64,000 nt of DNA from Craspedostauros australis (taxonomy: Eukaryota > Bacillariophyta > Bacillariophyceae > Mastogloiales > Achnanthaceae). Positions 5,563-62,555 of the stretch are shown in pieces (positions within the stretch are counted from its first letter, which is position 1; the number at the start of each line of letters is the position of its first letter). Made by a program: the position numbers and the translations under genes. The DNA lies in the NCBI GenBank assembly GCA_026770025.1, contig JAMXDE010000008.1:124001-188000 (forward strand). Direction: 5' to 3'. The notes beneath the pieces were generated by a model. The model was not told the origin of the DNA. It ran no database searches and worked only from the letters and a program-made list of their open reading frames with translations.

Positions 5563-6243
5563 TGTCAGGAATCGAGGGTACGACTCTGTCGGAAAGATAC
5601 CCATGATTGCCGCAACTCCCAACATTATTTGTCACACCTTTGGATATTATTCGTCACACCATTGAATATTGTCCATTCCACCCACGACACGAATCACACG
5701 GGAATGACCCCAGTCTTACCAAGCAAACAAGCCTGTCCTCTATGAATCCAGAAAAGGCCACGACATCTAGACCATGTGAAGGAAGATGATGACAGACACA
5801 TTGATGATCTCCCCATCTGGAGATCATGGCACGTGTCACCCACGGACTAGAACAACTCAGAAAGGGCATCAAACATGACACCAATCATGACACCAATCGT
5901 AAAGTTTGGTGTCAGGAGATCAAGAGCGAAACGCAAGACTGTGGAATCGTACCGCAGGGAATGTAGAATAAGGATATGCACGACGAGTCGCAAGGCAGGA
6001 ATGCCTTCGGACATGCACGACGATGTGCATGACAAGGATGCCTGCGGATGAGGCCTCATGCATGCAAGCGATGATCCATGACGTTGAGATGCATGAATGC
6101 AACAGTCTAACGAGATGCTGCCGCAGGAGATGCTACATGAGAAACGAAAGGCAAAGGAGCTGAAGAGAATGAGCTCACAGTTCTGAATAGTACGATCTAA
6201 CAACGAATTAGTTCTTACTAACACTAACCCCGGATTTCCAACA
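5563..6243 (+). repeat. Copia-1 5' LTR
   Basis: 681 bp, starts TGTCAGGAATCG and ends TTCCAACA. It is repeated at 12392-13072, and three independent LTR reading frames translate identically in the two copies. The internal region after it starts with a short palindrome at 6244-6255; I could not assign a primer-binding site to a tRNA. Confidence 0.95.
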
Positions 6244-6322
6244 CGTTTCGAAACGTTACGATTGAAATCCTACGTTTCCATCATCACCAACACAGCAACA
6301 AACGACTCTCACCATCATCACC

Positions 6323-12300: not shown

Positions 12301-12316
12301 CACAATGGATCAGTGA
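6323..12316 (+). CDS. Copia-1 gag-pol polyprotein
   Basis: 1,997 residues, with the ATG 79 bases after the LTR. Two CCHC zinc knuckles begin at residues 269 and 312. A long acidic linker of about 500 residues follows. It holds three copies of a PMW-containing peptide (about 350-415), a CX2CX9CX2C zinc-ribbon-like motif at 594-610, and a doubled PDMAMVI peptide near 773-790. The aspartic protease motif DSGAS is at 818. The integrase zinc region is near 960, and its DD(35)E residues are D1020, D1082 and E1118. The reverse transcriptase carries YVDD at 1668-1671. RNase H has the TDSEFAGD motif around 1844. There is no stop or frameshift, so all enzymes could be made. The acidic linker is much larger than the usual short gag-protease junction. 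Confidence 0.96.
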   Translation: MTSFLGKTDRYMIMFDGKRSSWKAWSAKFLARANRKGYGDLYLKDLDEVIVKTEAFDPSPLASIAGSEEKKLKASKLSAMSPEEKAEYKKALAKYAFEELTMAINHETTEGDVAFMAVLGCESNIYEGGDPRKAWKALERIYEQRTAPMKAKLLAQLNGMRLKKGEHPDTFLTEMEVIRNRLKHAGVNMDMEQYHMLVLNALGRDYEMDVKLIELKFENIEKQMTIEDIREAVSATYDARHIKQGGSKRENHSKEEMALAATGGFKGHCRNCGAYGHKKADCRSAPKNKGGKPSKKNKRSDTEDKVKFNGNCKYCGKKGHKILECFKLKAAMKAADAANVATDGMDGTDDVALVMVEEPMWLPEDAAANNAAFVVVDEPMWMSADDEEDDIDLVMTDESMWLPDEDKSANNEELVCFPIDELENDPVDVKNLTNPRIVTIDEITNIKQNQTINTTNMAHYESSINDMALATTDEDMIGLDIEEEDEYSEEEREAHTPSVYGYYGPPVAAVETINREQFPSSDEDDYTDEDNLFEGIVYEDEPLSVGDIMENEVAMPGVDHRVTSTIYSRTEPRTLVDRMIEESSRNGGSTAGWCPLCFQRGPLYAMCKNCRNSPFLIQLANPPARAAPTTIQDIMTRRQKLWTAGPLHVAMRYSLSNMMVADEVRSELALLCCDAAHAYTEGGGESLNPRTLYYMMHRIDVFTPMQLVQAVQHINARLEELNLPSIHRGLIDSLVQHAAEMLMWMHHASDQGVRDPEEFNQLPIYRAADAQPDMAMVIGDHQDAQPDMAMVISDLDDASALRHTIAPDHHEANTWLGDSGASCHLTNSEEGMINVRVANHSIKIGSGRYLKATKVGDKRMVVMQKNGNQATIVLKQVKFVPNLWVNLLSINKALENGFDISNQGVVMSLEKRGQRITFDRLMATHSGFVSGVNMISAPPHEDQANVGVSTRSAVDINQIHKMLGHVDTYTISRTAGRYGWNVTGKLHACIDCAIGKQKQKSMTKRLQRRAKEIGERLFIDTSSVQTHSYGQGKYWLLVIDDYSDYCWSYFLKEKSEVGEKLITLLRWLHSNQQAHVKNIRCDNAGENYAAEKQLLDEGFGPTFEYTAAYTPQQNGRVERKFATLYGKVRSMLNQTHLPRTVRGKLWAEAARTATQLENIIETKTREPACVLFNNRIPTFVDGLRKFGEIGMVYIGGRTIKAKLDDRSRPAMFVGYGQSHAKGVYRMLNLATTKILITRDVTWMNQSYGQFRGIENANRSVLIDLEDDDSTSGMNTRTTRTTWERRSETIKSMEADDADRSSRAKEIEDTDDAARGQDSLLPAQGENESNEEIDDEFGRDDEGKVDEAAEKEPEDTPVAEPVTRIPRMLSALAGYNNDPIPEEERDLGSSDESEPNDSEGYVTPEETITTPPKPGGPDFHADGSIFNRDIAGTMIDTPHGMMRLDDIIAADQALKDERNEGGAEYANVAMLLDPTTFEDCWDHADPNKRKKWREAINKEFYDMARRKVWEKIKKDQMPKDRRCVKTKWVFKEKRNGVFRARLVACGYSQIAGVDFSAHHAPVIHDATYRIMLTMKMILHMDSIIIDFETAFLHGELDEEIYMQCPKGMRHEADECLLLKKTIYGLVQSARQWNKKLVDILFKLGFRQSEVDPCLLIRNQEGRLLLIGTYVDDCLCIGEEQELKKLVKDIRAERFGVKVEEDLEDYLSCKIIFNRDKTNCWVNQPHILKNIIDTFGSDVVKLQRYGTPGTPGQGIQRQSDAPKVDKQRHSRYRSGVGMLLYLVKHSRPDIANAVRELTKVLDGPTAAAYKEMLRVMKFVWDTREYGLKMKPNPLTQDAWKIAIYTDSEFAGDKDNRISVGGHIVLLQGVPIIWRSKAQRSVTLSSTEAEYVALSEAGKEIRFVTQLMSDIGLRMHKPADVMVDNVGAIFIASNPSTSARTRHIDIRHHFIRELITNGEARTKFVRSEDNIADGFTKNTKKEIYEKHRDHYIQLRSTMDQ

Positions 12317-12391: not shown

Positions 12392-13072
12392 TGTCAGGAA
12401 TCGAGGGTACGACTCTGTCGGAAAGATACCCATGATTGCCGCAACTCCCAACATTATTTGTCACACCTTTGGATATTATTCGTCACACCATTGAATATTG
12501 TCCATTCCACCCACGACACGAATCACACGGGAATGACCCCAGTCTTACCAAGCAAACAAGCCTGTCCTCTATGAATCCAGAAAAGGCCACGACATCTAGA
12601 CCATGTGAAGGAAGATGATGACAGACACATTGATGATCTCCCCATCTGGAGATCATGGCACGTGTCACCCACGGACTAGAACAACTCAGAAAGGGCATCA
12701 AACATGACACCAATCATGACACCAATCGTAAAGTTTGGTGTCAGGAGATCAAGAGCGAAACGCAAGACTGTGGAATCGTACCGCAGGGAATGTAGAATAA
12801 GGATATGCACGACGAGTCGCAAGGCAGGAATGCCTTCGGACATGCACGACGATGTGCATGACAAGGATGCCTGCGGATGAGGCCTCATGCATGCAAGCGA
12901 TGATCCATGACGTTGAGATGCATGAATGCAACAGTCTAACGAGATGCTGCCGCAGGAGATGCTACATGAGAAACGAAAGGCAAAGGAGCTGAAGAGAATG
13001 AGCTCACAGTTCTGAATAGTACGATCTAACAACGAATTAGTTCTTACTAACACTAACCCCGGATTTCCAACA
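12392..13072 (+). repeat. Copia-1 3' LTR
   Basis: 681 bp, matching 5563-6243. It is followed by AATGCC at 13073-13078. The gypsy reading frame runs from 13079 into this LTR and ends at 12676, giving a chimeric tail about 130 codons long that is not a natural product. Confidence 0.95.
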
Positions 13073-15924
13073 AATGCCAGTGGCCTTCCTTCCTGTGCTA
13101 TCACGCCACCAAGTTGGTAGTCGCTCGCATCGGCGTGCACATGGAACTCTTTATTAAAATCTGGGTATGCAAGCGCTGCCTCTCGCATTACCATTTGTTT
13201 GGCTTCATCGAAGGCTTTCTGTTGGGTCTTGCCCCAGTGCCATTTCATGTTCTTGGCGGCGAGGGAGGTAAGCGGGGCCAACACATGGCTCCTGCGCTTC
13301 CACATATCGCGGTAATAGTTGACCATGCCTAAGAAACGTCTCAGCTGTCGTTTTGTCGACGGCGGCAGCACTCGCTGTATCGCTTCCACTTTCTTTGGCT
13401 GAGGCTCGAGGCCGCGTTGCATCAGTTTGTATCCCAAGTAGTCCAGCTCCTTCATCATGAAGAATGACTTGCGCAGGTTCACAACGAACCCAGCATCTTG
13501 GAGACGCGCGAGTACAGCATGACATTTTGTCAGATGATCGTCGTCACTGTCATTTGTATCCGACAGGACGAGTATGTCATCGAGGTAGACCAGTACGAAT
13601 TCTAGGTCTCCAAGCAGCTCATTCATGATGCGCTGGAATATGTCAGGGGCTGTGGATATACCCATTGGCAGCTTTTTATATCTGTACTTTCCCCACGGTA
13701 ATATTGTGGTGCACAAGTTCTGGCTGGGGGTATCTAATGGAATGTGGTAGTACCCCATTGACAGGTCGAATGCTGTTGCGTACTTGAACTGTTCCAGCTT
13801 CTGGAGCATGTCCTGTATTTTTGGCAACGGATACGGTCGCCGTTTCAGGTGCTTATTGAGCTCCCGAAAATCAGTTAGTACTCGGACATCTCCAGTCTTC
13901 TTTGGCTGGATGAAGCTGGGTGCAGCCCAGTCACTATTGGAGAACTTCTCCCACACTCCGATTGTCTCAAATCGTTTGCTCTCCTTCTTTGTTACCCGCT
14001 CATAGGCTTTGGGCACTGGAAAGGCTTTGCCATGGAATGGCTTTGCATTTGATTTGAGTTCCAGATGTACTGGACTGATCTTCAACGTACCCAGGCCTCC
14101 TTTGAAGGTCTTCGGTGTACGTTGGAGTGTCGCAAGCAGCTTTTGTTGTTGCGCTTCACTGAGATGGCTCAGTTTGGATACGTATTTATCCAGCTCTATC
14201 TCGCTGTAGTCAGCATCCATGATTCGCTTCTGCCTATCTTCTGCTTTGTTGAGCAGGGTAGACTGCATCGCTATCTGGTATGCGATGTTGAGTGCTTCCT
14301 TGTCTGTCAGCACTCCACGATTCTTCATTGGGATTGTGCTATTATCCCATGTCATTGTGTTATCTGAGAATGACAAGTCTATTCCGAGCTCATGCATCAA
14401 GTCTGTACCCACGATCATATCGTATTGGGCATTCTCAACTTGCGTTGTTTCATCAACGTGCATGGTCCAACGGATTGACTTATGTAGGTGGAATTCGGGC
14501 AGCACTAGATTGATCGTGGCTAGGCTGGACGTATAGAAGTTGCCGCCCATTGTTTTCCACTTCATGAGTTCACTTTTGTGTCTCAGTGTGCGAGGAGCAT
14601 ACTTTCTCAGTATCAGGCAGCTTGATGTGCCAGAGTCTAGCAGGACACGCATTCGTACCAATTCGCCTTTGCTATCAACCGTTTCACCAATAATTTCGGT
14701 GGACATATGGTTATGCTTACTGCGCTTGGCCTTTCGACTAGCCAGACTATAGCAAATTGCTGCACATTTGTGTGTAGGCGTTGAGTATTCTGTAGATGCG
14801 CTGCTACTAGAGCGGTTATCATTATTGTCCTGGTTCAATTGACGCAGGTAGTTGGCATTTTCATCAACTACATCGGCAATGCGACGCTTCTTCTTCAGAT
14901 TCCTCTTGCTTGGTAAGGATTGGACGAGTTGATGAAAGACCTCTTGGGTCAAGACCACATTGAGGTTCTCATCACTCTTATTGGAAGCCTTTTTGTCTTC
15001 GGACGGGACGCGCCAACCGCTTGGGCGGAGGCTTGCGTTCTTCGGATCATTCCAGCACTCACTGGTTTCGTGTCCGATTCTGCCGCATCTCCCACATTTG
15101 GGAATGGATTTGCCGTGACTGAATTTTTGGCGTTTATTGTCGTTATTAAGGCGTTTACCGCGCCTTCCACGACTGCGTTCGTCGCTTACGCTACGCTTGC
15201 CTTTCTTGGCACCATTGCCCTTTTTGAAGGGGCGACAGCTGTTTGCCACATCAAGGAGGCGACGATAGAGCTCCTCGAAAGAGTGCTCATACACCTGATA
15301 CCCACTTTGGAGTAGGGCACGGCTGTACTGTTCTGGACTTGCTCGGTCCAAGATCTCGACCAGCTCAAAGTCTGGGAATGCCGTTGGTGTAATATTAGCT
15401 CCTGGCTTGGGCATGAATGGAAGGTACTGATTTAGTTCCAATAGCCGAGCACGGAAGCTTGCTAGTTCACCATGCTTGAATGAAGCATGTTGGCGCATGT
15501 AATTGCGCTGGCGTCGCCAAGCACTCGTTGGGTGTCCAAAGAATGGAGCACCCACAGCATTCAGTCCCTCCTGGAGCTTGCTACTGGCTGATGAGGTGGT
15601 ATTGCCACCGACTGCTTGCACTGCTGTCGCAAATCGATTCTGCGCATCCCCCATCAACAAGTTGTTGAGGTGGATCATCTTCTGTGCTGCAGTGGTCATT
15701 CTCTTTGCTGCCATGAGAGTATCGAACTCACGGCGGAACCTCAGCCATTCTTCTGCGCTCCCATCGTTGAACTTGAGGACTGATGTCTCCACTGTGTCGG
15801 TATTGCCCTGATCTGATGGATCTTCGTAGACATCCATTTTGAGGTACATGCTTCGAGGGTACTTCTTCTCCTTTGGGCTCTCCCAATAGAGGACAGGCTC
15901 CTGCCCTGGCTTGACTTCGCTCAT
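13073..15924 (-). pseudogene. Gypsy gag-pol, 5' part: gag, protease, reverse transcriptase
   Basis: On the minus strand, from the ATG at 15922-15924, about 950 residues are open until the Copia insertion. Gag comes first, with one CCHC knuckle (CX2CX4HX4C) starting at about residue 277. A retropepsin-type LLDSGTSSC site has its Asp at residue 430. The reverse transcriptase includes the YLDD catalytic box at 780-783. The RNase H begins, with HADASDYQLGG, just before the break. The frame is undamaged up to the insertion and rejoins 4053-5562 in phase, so the only lesion I see is the Copia element. An in-frame GTG at 15966 extends the frame to the LTR edge, but the ATG is the better start. Confidence 0.92.
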
Positions 15925-15968
15925 CTTGCTTGGACTTGGATGCTCAACCGCAAGGAGTGATATCACTG

Positions 15969-16501
15969 TGCCTTATGCCGGCGTACGATTGAAGTTGTAT
16001 TTTTTTTTCTACGATTGATTTTGTACTTGATACGATTGAGGTTGTTGTTGATGATGTGATTCCAAAAATTATGATTACTTGAGCTATCTCTCTCTTCTGC
16101 TGTCTGCACCTCTTGGTCGATCAGATTCATGCATTTCGAGATGATTCGGTTTGCACCTCTTGGTCAATCGTATTCATGCATTCTATTAGCCTTCTTGTTT
16201 TGAATGGAGGTCAATGGTTGGTTGAAGAAGTGTCTGCACAATATGCAAATATTTCTTTACGATTGAATCTTGACTCATCTGACTTCAGTTCGAGTCTTGA
16301 CTAATCCGACTTCAGTTCGAGTCTTGACTAATCCGACTTCAGTTCGAATCTTGACCGATCCGACTGGATGGATTGTTAACACGACTCGTAGGTGAGACTA
16401 ACAATGTGATTGCTTGGGTGACTTATTCATGACTAGTATCTATTGTGCACAAGTCTAGGTCTTGTGTCACCAATAGTCTATCTAGCCAGCCGTCTAGGGC
16501 A
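15969..16501 (-). repeat. Gypsy LTR (5' LTR in element orientation)
   Basis: 533 bp, TG...CA, near-identical to 3503-4034. On the element strand it drives transcription leftward into gag. It is followed on the plus strand by the GTTCT duplication at 16502-16506. The bases just inside the element contain a GTGATATCAC palindrome; the tRNA primer is not identified. Confidence 0.93.
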
Positions 16502-16506
16502 GTTCT

Positions 16507-19500
16507 GTGAGAGACAAAGTGCAATGATTTGCATTGCTGGGGTACTGTTTCCCTGTGTCGGTGTTTTGGCAATGGTGGGTGTCAGTGGCTCGGTTATCGG
16601 AACCCTATTGGTTCCCTGACACGGGTTCCAAAGATCTGCTTCAATGTTCTGGATCTGTCCCCAAACGTGGGGGCCGGTGAAGTATTCATTCGATCTACTG
16701 GATTGCTGACAGGTCGAGTGATTCGTAGTCTCTCTCTAAGATGGGTACTAGTTTAGCTCTATTATGCTCGGCGTGTGTAGTCCTAGACGAATGCGAAAAC
16801 ATGCACTCATTAACGACATGGATCGGAGATTGTCACTTCACACATGTACTCTCTACAAATCATAGTATGGTCAAAGTTCTTTTCGTAATAATCCGCATGA
16901 TCGTACTTGCGAACCCTGAATCGGTTTACAAACCAAGTTTCTGGTCAGCTGATTCGCATGGATCAGGTGAGTCGACTTCCAAAGCAAAACGTTCTACCTG
17001 TCATATCAGTCTAGATAGAGAATGATACTCCAGACAACCGCACTAACAAACGCGCAGAACTCCACAATCTTGGCCCGAGTCGGGTTAAGCATGGGATGCC
17101 AAGCCGATACTAAATTCACATGGCAGTTTCAGAGACGTCAAGATCAGAGCTTTGTGGACAAGAGTGAGACTCCAGAGAGAGAGAGAGAGAGCATCGGAGC
17201 GGAGCGGAGCGCGAACAAGAGTGCGCCCGAGTTTCGTCTTGGTTCTTGGTGGTAGCACACAATTATCCAAAAGTCCGTTCGTATTGCTTCCGTGTCACAA
17301 CAATAGGCTCAAATCTGATTCCAATTGGCCTATTAGAGTATTCCGCTGGATTTCGATTTTGATGGAACAGAAATGGCATTTATGACGACGACGAAGGACA
17401 CGTTACGGGTGGGTCTGAAACGAAACCGCTGGCTCCGCGATGGTGCTACACGGCGCGAACCGTGAAGAGTGGCTCGTCAACGCGCGTGCGTTTTTGTCGG
17501 AGACTTCCGCAAGGCGACGATTCCCAGGCGCAAGCCCTCGTGGAGACACAGCACCAACCTTTTCGGTGTGAAGGCAATGCGTGTCACCAAATCCAAGACC
17601 AAACCGAACAAAGAGTACCAGCATACACTGTGCTCGGATAAATACACACACACCGCCAGTTCTTTTTTCTGCCTCTTTGCAGGGATGTGTTGTTCGCTGA
17701 GATACTTGACTCTATGCAAAGCGCATTGGTAGTTTGGAGATCAAGCACCGAGATCTCTGCCGTACTCGTACATACGTACATACATACATGCCACAAAACA
17801 TATCACGCTTTTGCAATCACGAGCATTGTCCCATCATCGGAGTAAGCCTCCTGGTCGTAAAGAAACGTGCTTGTGCCAAAGTGGAGTACATCCTCGCGAG
17901 GACCTACGAAGAGGGAGGACTTAGATCGTTCGACGAGGAAGAAGAGAAGAGCGCTGAGTAGAGAAGAGGCAAGTTACTACACATCTGTTTGCCGAGGATT
18001 GCTTCCTGTGAGAAGGAGGTGTGAAGGATGTTGGGCTTCTTTGACGGCAGCGCCAACTCCGGTTCGTGACTCGCGATGCTTGAACTCTGCACACGTGCAT
18101 GCACGGTGGTCACTGCGAAACTCCTCGCACGAGCACCATGCGTCCAACGTAACATGGCATCCCGAAAATGGCTATTGGCGAGAATGTGCAATGTGTGTCT
18201 CATCAGGAACTTCACTGTTCATTGCACGAGGATCGAATGCGGGAGAGGCGCCTCTCTCTACCAATACCTACAAACTCATACACAAAGAGAGACAGACAGA
18301 CAGAGTCCTCTCCAGAGGAGAATACTCTACAAAAGAGCGCACACTTGGCACGTCATGTGCTGTCCCGAATGGATCTCGCCAGGGAGTGAGTTTCCACCCT
18401 CCGGCGATCATCTTCTGGGAGAGATGCTGATCCCAGGAACATCGGAAAGGGCGGGCATGTCTATTTGCACCCATGAGGCAGTACCACAGACTCCCAAGAG
18501 TGCGAAAGATGGAGCGTGACACAGTCATTTGCATTTGCATTGCGTTTGCAATGTTCGTGCCTTTGCTGACTTTCTTGGACCCTGTCGGAGACATGAGCAG
18601 TTCACGAGTAGATACATGCCCTGAGACGTATAGTATCACAGTGTTCAAGAGCAGGGGTATCACAGAGCACACGACAAGAGATTGCTTTACTTTTATCTGT
18701 TCTGTTTGTTTCTGGAGAGAGAGAGAGAGAGAGGGGAATACCTGCACTCTGAGGTGGGGCATTGCTCTTTTGGTTGGAATAGTCATGCCCCCGGACTTCA
18801 CCATCAGCGTTCGTCTTGTTCCGTTTCGCAAATCGCCCATCACGTGTCGCCAAAATGTGAGAGCCAAATGGCCACCCCACAGCAGTTTCGATGTTTGTTT
18901 GGGAGGAGGAAGAAGGGCGAAGAGTTGAATAGTGGTACACTTCCCAAAGGGAGCGTGTCGTGCGCTTTGGCGCACATGGACTATTAGTTCATCGATCACA
19001 GCACCTTCGTGAATCAGGAACAGAGAAGGTCGGTATTGCGCAACACATACTCGCTCGCTGTAGAACTCCACAAAAGAGGCCCAAAGCGATTTGTCATTGA
19101 TCGGCATCGTGATCGGTCCGTGAATCCAGCATTGATGGAACAGACGCAGAGAGTGCGCCCACCGAATGGCATTTCACGCTCGCTGGTGTGCAACCGACAT
19201 TCTTGTGGTGATTCAATCGCGTTTGGGTGCTTCACATCACAGCGCAAAGAACTGGTGATTCTTCGTGTCGCGAGCAATCCATGCACGATCTCTGACCACA
19301 ATGCATCAACAATCAGAACCACCCCACTATTCACGTGTCGAATTGCCGATTCGCCTCGAGCATTGCATTCACACCAAACGCCCATGGGAAATCAGAATCC
19401 AATACTTAGGGCATCGCCGCTTTATATCCTCATCCATGACGGAGGAATCCTATAAATCTGGAGCAAAGCATGCACCCGTTTTCCAGAAACGCTCCGATCA

Positions 19501-31129: not shown

Positions 31130-32376
31130 AGAGACTTCCTGAAACCCGAAACCAGTTTCCCGAAACGACACGCACTGTGACTATCAATAACGTCTACAAA
31201 TAACGGCCCGAAATATGACAGACGTCACCGACCGTGAACAAATATTAGAATCAAGGGGGTCGTATGCAAGACTAGCAACGAAAATGTAGTTTTCTAAATG
31301 GTTCCTGTGCTCCTTCGTCTCATTCATCCAACCTCCTACCACATTTTGTTCCTCACATCCACATCGGCATCCCTGAGCTGCATCCATCTCATCAGTTTCG
31401 TTCATCTGCGCCGGAGGCGTTGCCATTGAGATTGTCGACTTGCTTGTCCCTTTATGAAGTAGACGATATGATATATTGTACAACATTTTCAGTTTCAGTT
31501 ATTGTAATTCTTGACGACAACTCTACGTGTACAATGACACTTTATTCACATCTTTCGAAAGCCCTTGAGCACAGCTTTCCAACTACATGTTTAAGTGTTA
31601 TACTTCTTACTGCCATCTTATTGCTTATCGAGCCTGAAGTACTCGTGAATTGAATTTGGACTGCGGGACTGGAGTGAAAATGTTCAGTGGCACGTAGATT
31701 GTCGCAGCATCACAGCGTTTTTCTGCGCATCAAAGACGGTGAAACTGTCGTTGTCTTTCGCCTTCGGGGATACATTACTTTCCTCTTCCAGAGGATGCCA
31801 TCTCCAAGAACGAAGAGGAGGATGAGCGGCACTCAACCAGTGTTGAGCGAGGAAAGGTTAATGGGCGTGTACGAAGACTGCAAACACATCATCGAGGATG
31901 ATGGCAAGAAACGACTTTGCCAATATTGCTGCCACTTTAAAGCCACAAATAAAATTACTGACCTAGATAGAAACACGCCCAAGAGGGTAAAACAGATCTT
32001 CAGCTTGTGAGGAGTCCATATCTGCAAAGAAATTTGGGACATCTACCATGGAAGGTGATGAAGTAGGGTAAAGCATAAATTTAGTGTTCCAACGATAGCA
32101 CTAGTACTCAAGGTACAGATCTAGTTTTTGCATAGAACATGGTAGCCTCCGAATAAGCGTATTTTATTGGTGGATCCTTGGGCTGTGTATGGATTCCGCG
32201 TGGAAGTCGATGCTTCACGGGACACAAGGTATTTCGGGATCTTCCTCCAACCCGAAAAAAAGAGCCCCAGATGGCCATTTCCCGAAACTATTTTTGGGCA
32301 TGGCCGGCTCGAAATGTCGCAGTATTGGGTTATGAGTTGTCCGTACGATTTAATTTTCGGGTTTCAGGAAGTCTCT
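31130..32376. mobile_element. TIR element of 1.25 kb, probable degenerate DNA transposon
   Basis: The ends carry an inverted repeat of 22 bases reading AGAGACTTCCTGAAACCC inward, followed on both sides by scattered CCCGAAA motifs. ATT flanks both ends and could be a 3-bp duplication. The interior includes a short reading frame (31795-32010) with a Cys/His cluster. Superfamily is uncertain: clustered subterminal motifs occur in hAT elements, but an 8-bp duplication is not visible. The foldback element at 29227-31122 inserted exactly at its left edge. Confidence 0.6.
31795..32010 (+). pseudogene. Possible transposase N-terminal fragment with a Cys/His cluster
   Basis: 71 residues inside the TIR element. 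The sequence is basic at the start (RTKRRM), then contains CKHI followed 14 residues later by CQYCCHF. This vaguely resembles the zinc-finger (BED-like) N-termini of hAT transposases, but a full finger is not present and nothing homologous follows. It may be a remnant of the element's own transposase or a chance frame. Confidence 0.25.
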
Positions 32377-35758: not shown

Positions 35759-38700
35759 TTCGAATGTTCTCGATGTGTCAAGGTACGACTTCTCATGTTC
35801 GCGTTGTAAGTCGGCCTTGATGTTCTTGGTGAATCCGTCACTTGTGTTCTGCTCGGATTTGACGAAAATGATTTCGATGGTTTTGTTGATTACCATGTTT
35901 CTCACGTAGTGATGGCGCACGTCGATGTGCCGCGATCGTTGGGATGTTGATGGGTTCTTGGCGATGAAGATTGCTCCGATGTTGTCCACACGGACCTTGA
36001 TCGGTGTCTTCACTGGGACGCCCACACTTTCGAGTAGCTGCATGACGAAGAAGATCTCCTTTGCCGCTTCGGAAAGGGCAACGTATTCTGCTTCGGATGA
36101 GCTGAGTGTGACGGCCTTCTGTGCCTTGGATCGCCAAAGGATTGGTACCTTGCACAGGTATAGGATGAATCCCCCTACGCTGATTCTTGTATTCTTGTCT
36201 CCTGCATATTCGCTATCGCAGAAGAGCTCCATGTCCCAGCCGTCGTCGTCTGGACGCGCTGGATGGATCTTCAATCCATAGTCCTTTGTATCGATCACAT
36301 ACTTGATGATCCGATACATCTCCTTCATTGCGGCCTTGGTGGGCCCGATTAATACCTTGGAGAGTTCCCTCACAGGGTTCGCGATATCTGGTCGCGAGTG
36401 CTTGATGAGGAAGAGTAGCATACCGACGCCTCGGCGGTATTCGGCATGTTCTTCTGGTCCGACCTTGTGTAGTCCGTTATCTTCGGATGGTCGTACGATG
36501 ATTTGACCTGGGGTTCCCAGTGTCCCATAGCGCTGCATCTTCACAACCTTGGTTCCGAACTCTTCGGTGAGGTGTCGGATGAGATGTGGTTGACGCAATG
36601 TCGCTCTAGTCTTGTCATGGTTCAGTTCGATGTTGCAGCTGAGGTAGTCTCCAAGTCCGCGCTCGATTGTCACCTTGAATTTGCTGCCTTGGATGTCCTT
36701 CAGGAATGTCTCCAATGCCTTGGAGTCTCTGCAGCAGAAGCAATCGTCCATGTAGATGGCCACGATCATACTTCCTTCGTTCGTCTTCCTGTAGAACAGG
36801 CACGGATCTGCCGCGCTCTGTTCGAAGTTGATATTCTTGAGGGTTGATACCAACATCTTGAACCATTGCCTGGCGCTCTGCACAAGTCCGTAGATTGGCT
36901 TGTGTAGGGTCAGGGCTTCGTCTGGTTGATGATCCATCCCGTTGGGACAGTTCATGTAGATCTCCTCGTCGAGGTCTCCATGTAGGAATGCCGTTACAAC
37001 ATTGACGAGTGCGCAGTCCATCTTCTTGATCAGCATGATCACCATCATGACCCGATAGGTCACATCATGGATGACGGGTGAGTAATGCTCTTGGAAGTCC
37101 ACTCCTGCGACTTGTGAATAGCCACATGCAACGAGCCGTGCTCGATGTGTGCCATCGCGCTTCAGCTTGAAGACCCATTTGCACTTGCAGCATCTGCGGC
37201 CGCGTGGGATGGCATCTCGTTTGATCTTGCTGTACACCTTGCGTGTGTCCATGGAGTCGAACTCTTTCTTGATGGCTGCTCGATATCCCTTTCGATGGAT
37301 AGGGTCTGGATGATTGAAGGCTCCATCGAATGTTGTAGGTTCGATGTGCTTCTCTGGTTCTTTCTTCTCGTCCTGCATCGACAGTCCGATGTCGATCGCT
37401 GGTGATTCGGTGATGATTGCATTCATTCCGTACAGTCCTGTTGTGCTATAGTGAGTGATCTCAATCTCTCCTTCATCTGCAATTTCTTCGTCATCTGTAG
37501 TTTCGTTGTTGGAGTCGTCGATCATCTCATCGCTGAGTTCGTCACTGTCTTCATTGGATGATGACTCGCTCTCATAGCCTTCCTCCTTTCGACCTCGTTC
37601 GTTGAAGTCTGCGAGCTCACGCAGAGCTCTGGGAATACTCTTCCCTGCAGTTGACTTGGGATTAGCTTCTCCCTTCCTGCCTCGTGCTTCGTGACGTCGG
37701 ATTCTCTCCTTTCTAGCTATGTCACGTTTACTTGGTTTGCTTGGTGGAGGTCTGGATGGTGTGTCATGTGTAGACCTCGCTGGTGTGTTCGGAGGGGTGA
37801 CGCCTGTGTCATCGTCGTCTTTGTCGCCGGATGGTATGATCTCGTCATCCTCATGATTGGATTCGCTCCGATCTTCCTCGTCGTTATGGATTAGTTGAGT
37901 CACTACTCCATCGTTCTCATCGTCGCTATCTGATAAGATGTGATACCTATTGGTATCAGCGAAAGATACTCTCTTCGCTTCTGATGTTTGATGCATTGCC
38001 GTCTTTGGCGTTGCTCCCTTTTGTCCGATGGTTGTGAAGCTGTTTGCATCTGTTGTTCCTGCTTCGCTGGATATGTTCGGTGCTGGTGCCCAGCCACAGA
38101 ACTGTCTGTATGATTGGTTGAGCCACTTGATGTCGCGAGAGCAGATCAGTGACTTGGTCGATGGTCTGTACATGTTGTAGACCCCTGATGCGTGTTGGTG
38201 TGCATATCTGATGAACGCCATCTCTTCTCCTCTATTCTTGAGTTTGGCGGTGATCCCGCCGTAGGTAGTCTTCACAACACCCACCTCTCCAAATGTACGG
38301 AGTGCATTTGCGTATGGTGGATCGTTGCCAAAGAATTGGCGATATGGTGACTCCTTCTGGTTCTTCGCTACAGTGATGTTGGCAATGGCGGTGGCAGTGC
38401 TTGCAGTTGTTGCCCATAGACCATGCCTATATTCTTCGTCGAGCTGTGCTCCGTTGAGCATGGAGCGGATCTTGGTGTAGAGGTACGCGAACTTGCGTTC
38501 TACTCTACCGTTCTGTTGCGGCGTGTTCGATGCTGTGAATTCGAATTTCACGTTCAGTCCTGCATCGATGAGAGTATCCTGCGTGGACTTGTTCTCTCCG
38601 CTGTTGTCACCTCAGAAGATGATCTGTTGGTCACCAGTCTGTGACTTGATCGTTTGGATGAATCGTTTGATGTATCCTGGTTGATCACTCTTGTTCTTGA

Positions 38701-53597: not shown

Positions 53598-54605
53598 CAT
53601 AGCTCCGCTTCGTTTCACAAACACAACCCAAAAACGAGTGGAGCGGTTTTCCGAGAATCGGTTCTGTTGTCGTTTTGGACATTTTTCCGTTCTTCCTGTC
53701 GTGCGAAAATAGCGTTGTGTCGGCGTACGAGTTCGCACACAAAGTGTGCGTGTCTGCGTGACGTCACAGAGCCAGCAACAAATGCTCAACGGTGCCACGG
53801 ACTGTGAAATGGAACAGAATAACGATCCGATGTGGCACGATCGCTGGAGCAAATTAGGACCAAGCGGGGCGCGATAGATTCACGAAAGGTGTGCGAATGT
53901 GTTGGAAGATTCCGCAGCCGGATCTCCGCGCAACCACAAGGTTCTTCTTGTGCAGAAAACAAAGAGCACAATTGCACATGCAAACACGCACACAAACACG
54001 GACAACCACCAAAGTGCGCAGCTGATCCAAGTAACATGCCTGTAATCGCATCCCACGCATCTTCAACGGCTCATAAAATGAAAGATCAAGCAAGTGCACT
54101 TGCATCTGTAAGTCGAGGCGCGACGAAAGAGCAGGCCCATCTTGCCTGGATCATGTTGCGCTGTGTTGCATTGTGCATGTCGAGGGTTGGGCCGGAGGGA
54201 AGATGATGATGATGGTGACGATGATGACACCTGCCAACCACGACGACGTTGACGTTGACGGCGGCAACTTCACGACCAAAGAGGCGAGAGAATATAATGG
54301 AGCAGAAAGTTGTGAGGTTTGTTGCTGCACTTGCGACACAGGAAACATGGGACGCGGAGAAGGAGACGATGACGGAGGATGGCCCCAATGATACCTTGCA
54401 GGGTGCAGAATGCGCAAAAGACGCTGGCAATGCAGGACGACAATGACCGCGACTCAGAACCCCGTGGGTCGTCCATGCGCGCCGGTCTTCGTATTTGCTC
54501 CATTCTCGCTAGTCCTCACATTCAAATCGATCCGGCCTTTCTCTCTTCCCTTCCCTCCTTTCCTCCTCCCACATGACTTTGCTTGTCATCGGGACTTGCA
54601 TGTAT

Positions 54606-57600
54606 GACCCCATTCAGGATACGATAGTATAAAAATGCGGATTTTTAATATTTTTATTTAAATCATTCTATTATGTTGTAGATAGTATATGGGTTAAGTT
54701 ACAAGCTTCTGGGCCTTGTATTTAAAAAGTTTATATTTTTCGCATTAGTCTACAACTAAACACGTGAGGCATGCGAACGTAAAGGGGCAACTTGGATTCG
54801 AAATTCTCAGTCGTGCTTCGACCAATGTCCAGTCGTGTCCTTCATCGACACACTCACATTTCGCGTGGGTGAGGCGGGTTGTTGCGAAACAATGTCGAGG
54901 ATTGGGCAGTGGCAGTAGGCATGCTGAAGTTGCTGCTTTATCTGGGCCGTGGATCAGTTGTCGAGATCCAGAGTTGTGGGTTGGTGTGTAATCCAAAGCC
55001 TGACCCCCACCAAGACTGCCGCACTGCCTTGTTCTCGGTTCTGCCACCGTTCATGGCCCAACAGGTTGAGCTTCGTCCATGTCCCATTCAGCACACATTG
55101 CCTTCCCTCCATATACCCACTCAATTGTACAGCCTCGTCCTTGCTTCAGGTCTATTCCCTGCCTGTGTGCTTGGACCTCCTCTCTGCTGGTCGTCGCGAA
55201 CAGTCATTGTTGGCTTCTGGCTGTTGTTCATCTGCTCTCCTCTCAACTTCTTGTTTCAGTGCCAGTGAACCTGCAAGCACTCACATCACAACACCAGAAA
55301 CAACAAGTAAAACCACTGCTGCCACCAGTCTCTTTCCACACCATGCCAACGGCTCAGTAGATGGCCATGGCGTCCCATGTCCATGAGAGCAAAGCAGGTT
55401 CAGCAGGACTTTGTATTTACAAACAAACCTAAGTGTTCAATAACATATGTTTTACATACCAAAGGATAAGTCACTGTGCTTCATTGTACTATTTATATAA
55501 CCCATGGATTAAGCCTATTAGTATGTGCCCAGCCTGCGCCGTAGACTTTTTTACGCCGCCCGCTTTTATCTAGTGTAGGGCACGAGGCAGAACGGCTATC
55601 AAGTCAATATGTATGCACACGCAGGGGATCACGACGGCCTCCACCTATCCTGCTCTCCACTATTCGTGGCTCTCCGGTAATATAGAAGGTGTATGTATTT
55701 GTGTACTCACACAGGGAAATCTAGGGACAGCTTCGTTCACGATGGCCAGCTACCGCCATCGGCGGAGCCAAGTTCGGACTTCAACGGGAACTTGATTGCC
55801 TGGTATCTGCAGCACTCGGTGCACTTGTCCGAACCATATTGTGACCATTTCCATATCTGTGGCTCCATTGCCTGACAGCTGTAGTCGGGCCCACATAGCC
55901 GTGCTTGCCCCTCGTAGTTGCGCTGCGTCTTGCAGGGTCGAGCTGTAGTCTCGCAACACCTGCCTCATGTGAGCCTCTGGCCCCTCATCAGTGCGATGCA
56001 TCGCCTGATTGCGTTGGTGCCAATGCTCCCATGCCACCTTCCAGAGCTTGCGCACGATCTGTGCCGCCCACCTTGCTGTGGACAGCCTGCGACCAATTTG
56101 CGCGTAGTACTGCTCCTGTAACTTGGTCCATGACCCCACGATCACGCCCGTGACCAGCCAATCCCATCCCGCCTCCTGTTGATCGTCCATCAGCTTTGCC
56201 TCAGCCCAGTTCGCGCATATGCATCCAACAGGTCCCAGCCCTCTCAACACTTGCTTGACATTGCTCAACCGTACTTTCGCAATGGCAGGATGAGTCTGCA
56301 TCTTTTACATCGTGATCCTCAGCCGTTTCCGCTGCACTTTCCAAAACGCCATCGATTCCAGTGAGCAGCAGACCCAACGGTGGCCATGAGTTTCCATCTT
56401 GCCGCACCTGGGGCAGCTGTCACTTGCCCTTGCCTTCTACCAAACCATCTGCATTCCCACAGCCACCTCCTGTATTGTGAGCTCCATGGTGAGCACCCTC
56501 TGTGCATTGGTGAGCTTGCCCGCCACCCGTCGTTGCACGCTTTTGTTGGCATCACCACCGATCACCTTCATGCCTCGCTCCCACCTGACCCTCGCCATGT
56601 CCGCCTCCACCACATTTCTGACAACCCTGGCATATGTGATGCTCGACCTGCGAATGCCTTGTCTTGCAATGTGCCACAATCATGTCCCTGTGTTCTGGTG
56701 AGAGCCCTGCGCATCGCCCTCTTCGAGCATTTGTCATTGCTGTACTGCAATCTGGTCTGTAATGACATTCATATGTTCCCACACATCAAGTTTGTCAGGC
56801 TTCTTGTGCTCGTCCTGATACCCACGCACGTGTCATCCCACAAGCGTTGTACTCAGCTGGCTTCGGCCCCTCATGGCAGCCACCATCATGTCATGACCAG
56901 GACTCGCCAGATCCAGTTCATGTACCCACTCCAGCACCTTCAGGGCTTACAGGTTGTCACAGCTTTAGCGCCCCCGTCCGTCTTGTATTCCAAACCTCTC
57001 CTCCATTTCCCAAACCTTCATTGGCGCACCGTAGATTCCCGCCAACTCCGCTTGCTGGGACGATGTCAGGCCCTCCCTCCGCGGAGCCTCAAAGGTTCTA
57101 AACACTGTCACCTCCAGAGTCTCATTAGTGGTCATCGCCCATGCCAACATTCCCTTGCCATTTCTGGTAGACCTGTCACTTCTGCCCACTGCTGTCTCTT
57201 CTTGTATACTCTGGGCCATATCTCTCCAGTCGACCTTGCATCTGATGTGTTTCGCAGCCCACGACTTGGCCTTGCCAAGACCTTCCCAGACATTCTCCAT
57301 CCCCTGGGTATCTGCCACCACGGTATCATCCCATTCGCCAACTGCCAGCATCAGTATGCCATCTCCTTGCTTGTAGCTATCCAAAGGGACCTTTCTCCAT
57401 TTCCCACCACTCCTGGCACTTGCCAAAGCAGCTTCCTTCTTGACTTCATTGGAACCTCCCTCCATTCCATCCATCCATTGCCATGGACCTGAAGCCTCCC
57501 AGTTTGCTCATTCTACCTCATGGAGGTCGCACTGCCTGCCTTGCTCCACTTGCCCAGCTGTAAACGATCCTGAAGCACGCTATTCCGACCCAGCATCTCC

Positions 57601-60600
57601 TTGAGCTTGGACCTCCATGTTTCCCAATATGCTTGCTTGAGCTGCCCAACTCTAGGCATGTTCACTTCACTGGCTTCCACCATCGCTCCATCATCTTCAA
57701 GGACCGCCTTCAGAATGCCTGTTCCGTCTGCCATAACGATCTCATACATCCAGAACAACTTCATTGACCTTTGACAAAGATTCACTTGTCGCATTTCCTC
57801 CGTGTTGCACAACTCCGCAATGGCTTCCATTATCGGGCAATCACCCTGCCTCCTCGGTTGTATCAGATCCTCCACCATTCACACTTCCACGTGTGCTGCA
57901 GATGCTTATTTGGCCACACTTGCCCACCACGACTGTGGAACCACCATTGACCACTTGCTTCCTACCGCCTGGAAGATTCGCATCATACCTGCACTTGTCG
58001 CCACGGCCTGGTAGGATGCTCGCAGGAGCCTCCACCATGCATCGCTTCATGACCAACTTGATAGGCTTGCCGAGCGCCGTCCCTTTTTGACTGGTGTGCG
58101 TTGTGAACGAGTATGCATTTTTGTTGTCAAGCGCCAGCAGTCAAAATGACGATCCTTCCACCACTTCGAGTCCTTTGATCTCGACATCCGGAAATTCGTC
58201 TGCCACCATCAACATCAATTCGATCTGGAGCACCACGCACTTCCCAGTCTCCTTGTCATACTGCACCTGATGCACCTTGGCTTGCTCAGTCAGAGTGAAC
58301 CAGTTTGCGCTGGTGGCTCCCACTTCCCACGTGCACCTTGCTGCCAGGGTGTTTACGATTGCCTCTGCCCTCACCAGATGTTCTGGGAGCATGTATGCGT
58401 AGGCAATGTCGGTCTTTCCATTCCAGGGCACCTCCTGCTTGTCAACGTGAATAAACACCAGCCTCTTTGTGATCAGATGCACCTGATTGGCAAGGTTCGA
58501 TCTCAGTGGTTCCTTGGATCCGTCGTGTCCAGCTCATCAAGGTCTTCGACTCCTCTGATCTGCACTTCCACCATCCTTCCCATTACCACTTTGAGTTTCT
58601 GTAGCATCTTTTTTGTGGCTGCCACTCCATCTGGGCCCAACTTCATTGCCATTGGATGGGGGATGAATCTGTTGCAGAGTTCTCCTGGCCCAATCTTGGA
58701 GATGTCATTGAACATCTCACAAAGGATTTCGGCGATTCTCACATGGATGCGGATGTCAGCTTCAAGCCTGAGAGCTTGCCAAGGTTGCACCTTGAAACTC
58801 CTCCCCATAGCTTTAGGAGCATCTTGCCATTCCTGGCTGATCATTTCGTCCGCCCTGACTCTTCCCCCAACTTCGCCTTTGACTCCTGCAGCCTTCAGAC
58901 GCATGTTGATGATGGCACATATAGCAGGTCCATTGGAAAAGTTCCCCATGTAGGTGAGCATTCCAATTTGCTTTGTGTACTCCACTTCATCCAGCAGTCT
59001 CTTGTACAGAGTCTGTCTAGTCGACTGGTAGAAGAAACTTAGCTGCGATCCTGACTTTGACACGATGTCCTTTGGATCACATGTCATAGCAATACGCACT
59101 TATGCCGCCACCGTTCGACCATTCAATGTCGCCTTCGTTGTGCTCATGTACACCATCAGCTCCTTCTCGGTCGTTGGGAATTGGTTGGCATCACCAATTG
59201 CCTTGTTGGTGTCTTGTACCTTCCACACCATGAGGAAGATCGTGTTGTCGTGATCCTTGAGCGCCCCTAGCCATTTTTAAGTGGCTTCAGATACCTCTTC
59301 ACTGGATTGCCGCCTGATTTGACCAGTACTGTCATGTCAAATCTCTTTGCTACCATGCCTTTCTTCAGCGTATGCGTGGCCTTGCTCTCCACGGATGCAT
59401 CGCTATCACTGTCTTCATCCGTTTTCGCACTGCTTGTGCTCCCTTCACTCTTGCATGACTCCTCATCTTCGTTGGACTCCTCACTCTCACTACTTGTGTT
59501 GTGCTCCATCGCCTTTGCCAAACGCTGTCCCTCCACCTCTATCGCGGTTGGTGTGCTGGTCATGAATTTGATTTTCTTCTGCTTGAGGTTTCTTGGTTGG
59601 ACGATGTCGCTATCTCTCGTCTTTTGCTTCTTTCCGCTCCCTTCTGCGGTTGTGCTCATCATGCTGCTTTTGGTTTCCCCCATTACTGCATCTTTGCCTT
59701 GGGGAACGAACGTGATGTCTGGGCACTGTGACCCCAACACATTCACAGCTGCTCTCCGCGCAATGGTGATCTCAGTCTTCCTCAGGAGCCCTCCTGAATT
59801 GGGAATCATCATGTCTTTCAGCATCATGTTTGGATCTGTCATGCTCAAGTCAGCAGCAAGTTGTTGAATCTGCTGTCGTCGTTCGTCTGTTTTGGGCACG
59901 TGCGCTACACCAAATTTTTTTCTTCCATCGATGACCATGCTGATGAACACCTGCACTTCCTGCACCGGGATAGTGTGTCCTGTTTTTGCAGTTGCCTTCC
60001 CATTCCACCTGTATTGCTGATTCATCATCCCTTTCACCAGGATATGGATCGACCTGCCTTCCTCTGCTGTCACTTCACAGGAAGAGAATGAAACAGCCAC
60101 CTTGCAGATTTCTCCTGGCAGAGATTTCCACATGCTTGTCGTTGTCTTATGTGCAATGGAGACTCCTGCCTTGTTTTCTCCTTCCACAAGTGTCAGCATC
60201 TTATCCCTGTTCTTGCTCCCAGCCTTCCTTGGCATGGTCTTGACAGCCCTTGTTTGTGACTGTCCTCCTCCCCGTATGCCGTTGGCAGTCTCCTTATGAT
60301 TTACCATTGCTTTGCCTGCCATTGTCGCTGATGTTGGCCTCACTTCTGTATCTTTTCTACAGTTGGTACCCGTTGACATCAGTGCTGTTTCGGTGTTTGC
60401 ATTCATTTTGTAGAATACTATCTTTACATGTTTCTACTGTGTTTGTTTTCCTGGTCCCTGGTGTTATGCTCCATAACACAATACTATATTATTATATGAT
60501 ACTATATGATATAATATTATGTTGTGTCATATTCGCAAGTGTTGCTATTGCCGTGAACGTGGAAGTGGACGTGTAGGGATGCCACCACCAACACCGTGCT

Positions 60601-60915
60601 GTTTGACATCCCACGCACAAAGGAGGTAACGCACACCAGAACCAAACCATCGACAACGCAAGGAATGAACGTGACACCGAACCTTTCACAACATCACCAT
60701 CGAGGCCGCTGGATACCATCTCAGTCTGGCATCGACGGTCAATGACGTCACCATTTTCGTCCACGGTGAGGACAAGCCAGCCATGTATTTGTGTCGTAGA
60801 AGCTAGCTAAATATATCTAGCCCTAATGAACAACACGAAAAATTGATGTCTAAAAATATCACGTTTCAGTATCTCAAATCCGCAGAATAATACTCGACTT
60901 CGCTGAATGGGGCCG
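54606..60915. mobile_element. TIR element copy 2, 6.3 kb, with large internal coding block
   Basis: Both ends read CCCCATTCAG inward (54608-54617 and, inverted, 60903-60912), and the ATTCTGCGGATTT-like inner part is also similar over about 45 bases. TA dinucleotides flank both ends (54604-54605, 60916-60917) and may be the target duplication. About 0.85 kb from the left end and 0.4 kb from the right end align with copy 1 at 1440-3232. Between these lies a block of about 5 kb (55489-60520) absent from copy 1. It holds decayed minus-strand frames including an RNase H-like domain. Either copy 1 is a deletion derivative of such an element, or copy 2 received a nested retroelement. Confidence 0.7.
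55750..60406 (-). pseudogene. Decayed element frames: ORF1-like protein, RNase H-like domain, Cys/His finger
   Basis: Minus strand, broken by many stops and shifts. From 60406 a basic, Lys/Thr-rich frame of 379 residues ends in an acidic Ser/Glu tail and KPLKNG (59267). Pieces at 59099-58503 and 58482-58141 continue with balanced composition. A Trp/Lys-rich piece lies at 57878-57513. At 57474-56965 the stretch GKGMLAWAM, followed later by SSQQAELAGIY, matches the first strands of a ribonuclease H domain. VRGYQDEHKK near 56800-56830 and a CPRCGKMETHGHRWVC finger near 56370-56410 follow, then a Trp/Arg-rich tail (56301-55750). Downstream RNase H, QD motif and finger are typical of some non-LTR-like retroelements. 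No reverse-transcriptase box (YXDD) is visible, so it is either deleted or never present. Confidence 0.6.
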
Positions 60916-61151
60916 TATTCCGACCCTCTCTCTACCTTTGGCACGATCGCAACTGTGACTGTGCACAATCACCCCCACTTCAACCGCCTGCAGACAACGT
61001 CCACAACATTCATCACATTCGCAGAAGACCAACCACACCAACAACAACCGCCGAGCTTCTTCCGCTGCATCACTCAACCATCCAACCATCCAACCACCTC
61101 ATAATCTACAACCTCGGTGACGACCATTCCATCACTCAACCCAACAACATC

Positions 61152-62555
61152 ATGAGCTCACAACACACGAGTACTCGTATTCAGACAGAAGATTCATCAT
61201 TTCCAATGCCAGAGCGAATCTCTGCACAGCATCAACATTCGATGCAAGCAAGCGCACCAGCTGCAACTGCACACGCGGATTCGGAAACCGATGAAGCCAC
61301 TAAGGCAGCAACAATGCCACCGGCGCTGCCAAAGCAGGTCCGGGCTCAACACCAGGACACATCCCTGGAGATGTCAACCGCCATTGCTGCCACCATCGCC
61401 AAGGCCGACATCGAGATGGCCGCAACCGACACGTTTGTGCTGCCACCGCTACCGAACGGAGCGTCATTCCACTCTCTGTCTCCCAAGAAGCGATGCGTCA
61501 GCACCAGCACGGTCATGACGGCACTGTCCACCTCCAGCGACGTCGACGATGACGATAGCGGCGACTTCTTCTGCTTGGCAAGCGATCACAGCAATGCGAC
61601 CGACGGGACAGCAGATATCACAGCCCGCGCAACGACGCCCGCGGCAAAGACGACGTTGCTGTCATCCATCCTCAAGGATGTCAAGGACCTCGCCTTCGCC
61701 ATTGCCATACTGGTGGTGTGCGAGATCATTCCCGTCGCGTTGTTCGAGAACTACGACTGGCGTCGTCCCATTCCCTACCAGCAGCTGCAGGACGGGCAGG
61801 TGATCCTGGATCAGGAGCTCATGTACCCGCTCAAACCAAACACCGTCTCGCAGAAGGTACTGACGTTGACCTCGATCGGCCTTCCGCTTTTCGCGTTCTT
61901 CCTATGCTCCGCCATCAACCTCGCGCGCAACTGCTACAACAGGAACACCGGAACCACCATCACTACCACCATGTCCTCCATCAAGAACGACCTCAAGGCA
62001 TCCATCTGCATGTTGCTGGCGGCGCACGGCATCAGCTTCGCCATCACGCACAGCCTCAAGATCTTCGTGGGGCGCTTCCGACCCAACTTCTACGCCATGT
62101 GCGAATTCAGCTCCACGACGCTGCAGTGCGAAGCCGAATCTCAAGGTTACATCATGAACGCCCAGCACTCCTTCCCCAGCGGTCATTCGTCGGAGAGCTT
62201 CACGGGCATGACGATCCTCGCCTTCTTCTTCCTCGGCAAGGCCATGCGTCTACGATCTTCCAACACGTTCCGATTGTCCATGCTGCTGTCGCTATCGCCG
62301 TTCCTCGTCTCGATCGCCATCGCGGCCAGCCGGTTGCACGACTTCATGCATCATCCATCCGACGTCCTGGCGGGCAGCTGGATTGGGATCGGATGCGGTA
62401 TCCTCGCCTATCACATGTGGTACCCATGTCCCATGATATCGAATCCAAGTGTCGGAGTGCCGTTGGAGGAGGAGACTCAAATGACTGATACTCAATTGAC
62501 AGGCGGCGGCAGTAGGAAGTACAACCTCCTGCGCCGACAAGAGAGCGAAGTCTGA
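61152..62555 (+). CDS. PAP2-family lipid phosphate phosphatase B
   Basis: 467 residues, single exon, with the ATG after a CA-rich leader. Residues 1-175 are low-complexity and acidic near 118-130. Membrane segments start near 180. Signatures are complete: KX6RP at 303-311, PSGH at 342-345, SRX5HX3D at 393-404 (S393, R394, H400, D404). It shares RPIPYQ, VILDQEL-like and GRFRPNFY blocks and the overall order with gene A at 48898, so the two are paralogues. They differ in the loop between the second and third motifs: the basic Gln-rich loop of A is missing here. Like A it should dephosphorylate membrane phospholipid derivatives. Copy 2 of the TIR element lies 236 bases upstream and may have separated an original tandem pair. 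Confidence 0.93.
   Translation: MSSQHTSTRIQTEDSSFPMPERISAQHQHSMQASAPAATAHADSETDEATKAATMPPALPKQVRAQHQDTSLEMSTAIAATIAKADIEMAATDTFVLPPLPNGASFHSLSPKKRCVSTSTVMTALSTSSDVDDDDSGDFFCLASDHSNATDGTADITARATTPAAKTTLLSSILKDVKDLAFAIAILVVCEIIPVALFENYDWRRPIPYQQLQDGQVILDQELMYPLKPNTVSQKVLTLTSIGLPLFAFFLCSAINLARNCYNRNTGTTITTTMSSIKNDLKASICMLLAAHGISFAITHSLKIFVGRFRPNFYAMCEFSSTTLQCEAESQGYIMNAQHSFPSGHSSESFTGMTILAFFFLGKAMRLRSSNTFRLSMLLSLSPFLVSIAIAASRLHDFMHHPSDVLAGSWIGIGCGILAYHMWYPCPMISNPSVGVPLEEETQMTDTQLTGGGSRKYNLLRRQESEV

Follow-up and report, generated by a model that had tools for sequence, protein, structure and literature searches.

A TIR-bounded element of Craspedostauros australis as the probable product of a dead LINE carried by a piggyBac-like DNA transposon

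The stretch of DNA analyzed here (the window; 64,000 nucleotides, G000:C6:124001-188000) was taken from the Craspedostauros australis genome assembly, which totals 74.8 Mb. A mobile unit of 6,309 bp with inverted ends (GRCCCCATTCAG), referred to as family A, occupies positions 54606-60914; element coordinates (el) were converted such that el position p equals window position 54603+p. The left inverted terminal repeat, GACCCCATTCAG, is located at 54606-54617 on the plus strand, and the same ends are found in related families. Its partner at 60903-60914 lies on the minus strand, where it reads GGCCCCATTCAG (CTGAATGGGGCC as read on the window). The original prediction that these ends match was confirmed exactly. 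The TA flanks it described are also present, but they belong to a wider, 4-bp target duplication, GTAT, the left (54602-54605) and right (60915-60918) copies of which are identical. The ends are the outer limits of the two arms of a DNA transposon. The left arm (54606-55485; el 3-882) is homologous to the related elements of families B, C, and D (by blastn, mostly 75-83% identical to L010-L026), and the right arm (60503-60914; el 5900-6311) is likewise homologous to related elements. Between the arms, at about 55490-60457 on the minus strand, a LINE is nested that is near full length save for an internal deletion, with its 5' end at the right and its 3' end at the left.

Other parts of the window (6266-12313, 12679-15972, 4056-5564, and 35759-38611) hold a Copia-type, stop-free frame of 2016 aa along with Gypsy-like and further Copia-like frames. 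An open frame with a PAP2 domain, delimited by stop codons, covers 60891-62552 and begins within the right end of the family A element. The element is located immediately upstream of this gene, which is likely a host gene.

The decayed minus-strand frames within the element had been described as containing an RNase H, a VRGYQDEHKK motif, and a Cys/His finger, and two explanations had been offered: nested elements, or an undescribed class of coding element. The frames are real. A remnant of LINE ORF1, reaching to about codon 811 of 887, was located at 58043-60433 on the minus strand and contains the open frame 59270-60433. The frame at 59267-60406, for which Pfam returned no match above cut-off, is the N-terminal part of this ORF1 and not RNase H. 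The RNase H-like remnant was placed at 56743-57195 (minus strand) by mapping residues 1420-1570 of ORF2; it features SDRS and AEL motifs and includes VRGYQDEHKK near 56830-56800 on the same strand. The finger, CPRCGKMETHGHRWVC, is at 56368-56415 (minus strand) and is zf-RVT-like, with Pfam zf-RVT scoring below cut-off in the relative P0001.

No Pfam call of RNase H was obtained in the two window pieces scanned or in the ORF2 of an intact relative. A search of PDB chains with a profile built from 13 ORF2 proteins yielded no match with an E of 0.01 or lower. Four relatives were scanned with Pfam; RNase_H was called in one of them (P0024, E 8.1e-06) and not in the other three. D1231, E1274, and D1308 of P0024 align with D1426, E1469, and D1499 of the LINE, and its histidine aligns with H1545. 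The LINE domain was identified as RNase H because it aligns with this one relative called by Pfam. VRGYQDEHKK is the counterpart of a KGHQD motif in intact relatives, and the finger comprises four alignment columns (C, C, H, and C) that show no variation across 13 ORF2 proteins. The predicted domain content was borne out by alignment, not by Pfam on the window itself.

Copies were sought with two core probes (56300-57500 and 59270-60406). Near copies matched at 89-97% identity, and weak matches (64-72% identity) led to free LINEs at C6:2258000-2272500 and C66:115000-128000, the two loci inspected; further weak matches at C12, C14, C28, and C59 lie outside this two-locus inspection. The C6 and C66 loci have in common an 8,498-bp segment that is 97.4% identical and ends abruptly. 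They feature target duplications of 14 bp (TAGCAAATTCACAA) and 12 bp (CACACCCAAGAC), and TIR arms were looked for at both loci and found at neither. In the free LINEs, ORF1 is 887/890 aa and ORF2 is 1901 aa long; in the ORF2 of L045, Pfam detected RVT_1 with E 7.7e-14 and Exo_endo_phos with E 5.2e-06. When the second half of the free ORF2 was used as a query, 28 proteins related to it were retrieved from publicly available genomes and metagenomes, and RVT_1 or Exo_endo_phos is present in many of them. These elements thus have the endonuclease and reverse transcriptase (in intact relatives), the duplications of variable length, and the lack of terminal repeats that define LINEs. LINEs that combine an APE endonuclease with RNase H and a zf-RVT-like finger are known; the free relatives have the same domain order, whereas the window copy is without endonuclease and reverse transcriptase.

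The window LINE is 63-79% identical in blocks to the free copies (L043/L044 and L045/L046). Its 3' end is that of the free LINE to the base (core 5428 = C6-locus 10467), and its 5' alignment begins 11 bp inside the free LINE (1981 vs 1970). At a deletion junction (58016-58043, minus strand), 3.55 kb are gone (C6 locus 4393 to 7946), which leaves ORF1 without its end and ORF2 without endonuclease and reverse transcriptase. The LINE's own duplication in its host element is imperfect (about TGCTYCAT on both flanks, with weaker matches further out), as would be expected of an old insertion, though it is not clean.

The segment 56300-56750, to which eight other loci align better than the free LINE does, was considered as a foreign block, and this idea was dropped. 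Parts of two of those eight loci come from relatives of the same LINE that lack its 5' portion and have an identical 3' end. L059, L060, and six further probe matches represent a relative of the family A LINE that is truncated at the 5' side and has a single, sharply defined start. L059 and L060 are 95% alike over 2.4 kb, flanks included; since the likeness extends into the flanks, this truncated relative also seems to ride in another repeat.

The end pattern CCCCATTCAG occurs 298 times genome-wide (155 + 143), compared to 14 occurrences (7 + 7) of a backwards-read control pattern, a count that is far above chance. With the two core probes, family A was found across the whole genome in at least 18 places including the window, and the other 17 sequences were retrieved. 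All 17 align unbroken with the window copy over the deletion junction. Both exact ends are present in 14 of the 18 copies, and each of these 14 has an exact 4-bp NTAN duplication; their ends are 6.28-6.51 kb apart in 13 cases and 13.7 kb apart in one, which contains an extra insertion. L033, L037, L040/41, and L042 are truncated or have one end altered, yet each aligns with at least one arm. The core and at least one TIR-end region are kept in all 18 copies.

The copies could have been spread passively, via segmental duplication or ectopic recombination instead of transposition. L017, L022, and L023, which are outside family A, fit such an account, having matching outer flanks and no exact duplication. 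Within family A, it is opposed by the exact duplications in all 14 copies with both exact ends and by the flanks (10-12 bp shown), which differ from copy to copy; in longer flanks, compared among L009, L016, and L020, the matches stop at the element ends. Passive spread is accordingly considered extremely improbable.

For divergence analyses, 14 copies were aligned (the window, L009, L016, L020, and L027-L036); four copies that are interrupted or truncated (L037, L038/39, L040/41, and L042) were excluded. The divergences of arms and core are correlated (r 0.80 over 91 pairs). Family A therefore moved as one unit. The arms are ca. 30% less diverged between copies than the LINE core (means of 0.0335 and 0.0474, respectively, among the 14), which composition, or selection on the ends, could explain.

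The codon positions of the changes were used to date the death of the LINE genes. Differences from the free LINE that are common to all 14 aligned copies are distributed over codon positions 1/2/3 as 141/117/317 in ORF1 and 163/144/370 in the ORF2 part, whereas singletons within family A are distributed as 71/82/94 and 86/88/74. A pooled chi-square over codon positions yielded p 5.8e-58 for the common differences and 0.74 for the singletons. The concentration of the common differences at third positions indicates that the LINE lineage was under selection prior to its capture. The 14 copies also have lesions in common: two 1-bp deletions in ORF1 and, in the ORF2 part, a single 1-bp deletion together with three stops. 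The stop at ORF2 codon 1496 (numbered by mapping) is inside RNase H. No ORF1 stop is common to all 14 aligned copies, the commonest being found in 12. Given the shared lesions and the even distribution of copy-private changes, the LINE genes, as read from 14 of the 18 copies, were dead before amplification and were passive cargo; the passenger could not aid its own spread.

The same data bear on the proposed new class, in which TIRs, an ORF1-like protein, and RNase H would constitute a working mobile element without reverse transcriptase. Such a class would account for the retention of the core with at least one TIR-end region in 18 of 18 copies and for the RNase H and finger motif residues, eight of which are kept in 108 of 112 codon-copies. 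This retention could suggest function, yet by rough estimate (not a calculation) about as many would be expected to survive by chance at such divergence. Coding capacity in the mobile copies is contradicted by the frameshifts and stops common to all 14 aligned copies, one of them within RNase H, and by copy-private changes that fall evenly across codon positions; moreover, the intact free LINEs possess a reverse transcriptase and are without TIR arms. A new class is therefore held to be exceedingly unlikely. The original prediction had itself named free relatives with their own duplications and a clear reverse transcriptase in intact relatives as evidence for nesting and against a new class, and both were found. 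Its expectation that many copies with constant junctions would signify one element holds for the transposing unit (18 of 18 copies), but not for a coding element class, the genes being dead in the 14 of 18 copies aligned. The element combines two types of element that were already known.

The DNA-transposon shell was characterized through its relatives. Elements with the same ends form families in which the arms are mostly 75-83% alike and the cores differ. One of them, L011, is 4,575 bp long and shares these TIRs, its duplication being ATAC, and its 304-aa frame matches DDE_Tnp_1_7 (PF13843) with E 8.6e-24; its close relative L018 has a 96% version of this transposase with one stop. Further relatives of the transposase, at 82 and 98%, have frames that are open. 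A search with the L011 transposase scored 86 matches genome-wide, none of them within the window element (C6:178604-184917). Fragments in the window at 31447-32145 and 16772-16924 resemble the L011 element (74-79%) and the L026 end (74%).

Among the 35 end pairs examined in same-end families, 31 are flanked by exact 4-bp duplications; such a duplication is lacking in L017, L022, L023, and L021, the last of which is a 45-bp palindrome. All 31 exact duplications are NTAN, and only one is TTAA. At the ends of the CCCCATTCAG families, GR stands before CCCC. For piggyBac elements, PMC10813416 gives TTAA as the target of most and lists a few others (e.g. TTAG, CTAA, GTAA, and TATG), and it also lists CCCAT as a motif of the TIR ends. 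Compared to that description, the family A shell is alike in its 4-bp duplication, its ends containing CCCAT, and the DDE_Tnp_1_7 domain of its relative L011, and it differs in its NTAN duplications and in the GR ahead of CCCC. As TTAA is not the usual target, the shell was classified as piggyBac-like and not as a typical member. The NTAN target is the most unusual feature of the element and, in departing from the TTAA typical of piggyBac, is one of the observations that stand against the explanation favored below. The word “non-TTAA” occurs in PMC7351741 and PMC3849761, and the term NTAN is in none of the ten papers that a search of the openly available literature listed for it; no claim is made that this target is unpublished. 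Passages of PMC5963040, which deals with transposons in the alga Tisochrysis lutea, contain nothing bearing on family A.

Sites without the LINE were found in the relatives. In L011, in the B elements, and at window 1445-3232, the arms continue through the LINE site with 0 to ~20 bp between the matching parts. The LINE-free site was seen in families B and C and at window 1827/1836, where, in an older decayed relative of the DNA transposon (1445-3232), el 5914 and el 882 are 8 bp apart. Family B (L010, L012-L015, L024, and L025) consists of elements mostly about 6.35 kb in length. L012 and L015 are 99.95% identical at different sites, and such near-identical copies imply recent movement. In seven frames scanned from the family B core (about 5 kb), there was no Pfam match above cut-off (the best, a weak one, was FA_hydroxylase, E 0.0051). 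When family B frames were compared by blastp to proteins of the LINE, the transposase, and the ORF2 relatives, the 40 best matches listed were to L011 and L026 frames, matches that probably reflect the shared arms.

Two other cases of LINE cargo were encountered. Family D (L019, L026, and G000:C5:100848-118506) has a different LINE in the same element type, in the opposite orientation to that of family A. This LINE has a duplication around TTTGCATACYAAAGAA at its two sides and lies ~20 bp away from where the family A LINE is inserted. The family D composite has moved as a unit at least twice. Its reverse transcriptase-like piece has no Pfam match; it matches the reverse transcriptase region of many genomic LINE ORF2 frames, with family A relatives at ~30%. 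A single ancient LINE insertion common to families A and D was considered and dropped, given the opposite orientations and different duplications. At C6:2789255-2804015, a 14.76-kb pair of B-type ends with matching GTAT duplications (sequence read at the ends only) has a 1907-aa LINE frame between them.

Family D raises the alternative that each family A copy arose by independent insertion of a site-specific LINE into a pre-existing transposon copy, with no movement of the composite. A different LINE, oppositely oriented, within about 20 bp in the same arms would be in keeping with this, as would the richness of the genome in such LINEs (150 reverse transcriptase matches scored genome-wide). 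Independent insertions are, however, at odds with the one deletion junction common to all 18 copies, the lesions shared by all 14 aligned copies, the joint divergence of arms and core, and the NTAN duplications at the ends of all 14 composites with both exact ends. Nor were arms of different sub-families seen around near-identical cores in the 14 aligned copies. This alternative is judged very unlikely. A broader proposal, offered tentatively, is that, in a piggyBac-like lineage whose NTAN target is relaxed, an AT-rich inner spot is a recurrent LINE landing site, repeatedly making LINEs transposon cargo (families A and D and one B-type element). Chance may explain the repeated nesting, given the 150 LINE matches.

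We consider it very probable that a LINE jumped into a non-autonomous piggyBac-like DNA transposon, lost its reverse transcriptase, and died, after which the composite was amplified with the LINE as cargo. Under this scheme, a LINE with an ORF1 and an ORF2 (endonuclease, reverse transcriptase, RNase H-like domain, and Cys/His finger) would have inserted into the transposon, undergone a 3.55-kb deletion that removed the reverse transcriptase among other parts, and gained stops and frameshifts. A transposase acting in trans, most likely from the related 4.6-kb piggyBac-type elements, would then have moved the 6.3-kb composite; this source is suggested by the shared ends and arms. Cut-and-paste movement would have brought the composite to at least 18 places and left the 4-bp NTAN duplications, with RNase H as a passenger having no role in movement. 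That the deletion preceded the burst is suggested by its sharing among the copies.

Related arrangements are known. In Tx1 of Xenopus laevis, the site-specific LINE Tx1L is located within the TIR element Tx1D. In that system, as in family A, an inverted-repeat DNA element is found both with a LINE nested inside and without one; whereas Tx1L is site-specific, family A represents one dead, reverse transcriptase-deleted LINE copy multiplied by its host element. The mammalian MER6/MER6A, a Tc1/mariner MITE, carries a V-SINE segment (PMC6887750). As described there, it resembles family A in that a retrotransposon piece in a non-autonomous TIR element was amplified as cargo, and it differs in that the piece is a SINE and not a LINE, the element is a mariner and not piggyBac-like, the unit is far shorter, and the host is a mammal. 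Teratorn of medaka, in which a piggyBac element is combined with a herpesvirus and transposition activity is reported to be retained (PMC5601938), is also a piggyBac-type element carrying another mobile genome; its cargo is a virus, while that of family A is a dead LINE.

A reading of raw sequence can suggest a new class of element (RNase H and TIRs with no reverse transcriptase) when a transposon has amplified a dead LINE. Family A is a clean case of a passenger amplified in this way: target duplications are present at two levels, there are insert-free sites, and the death of the cargo was dated at the codon level. The consistent NTAN target in a piggyBac-like lineage is of interest for target choice by the transposase.
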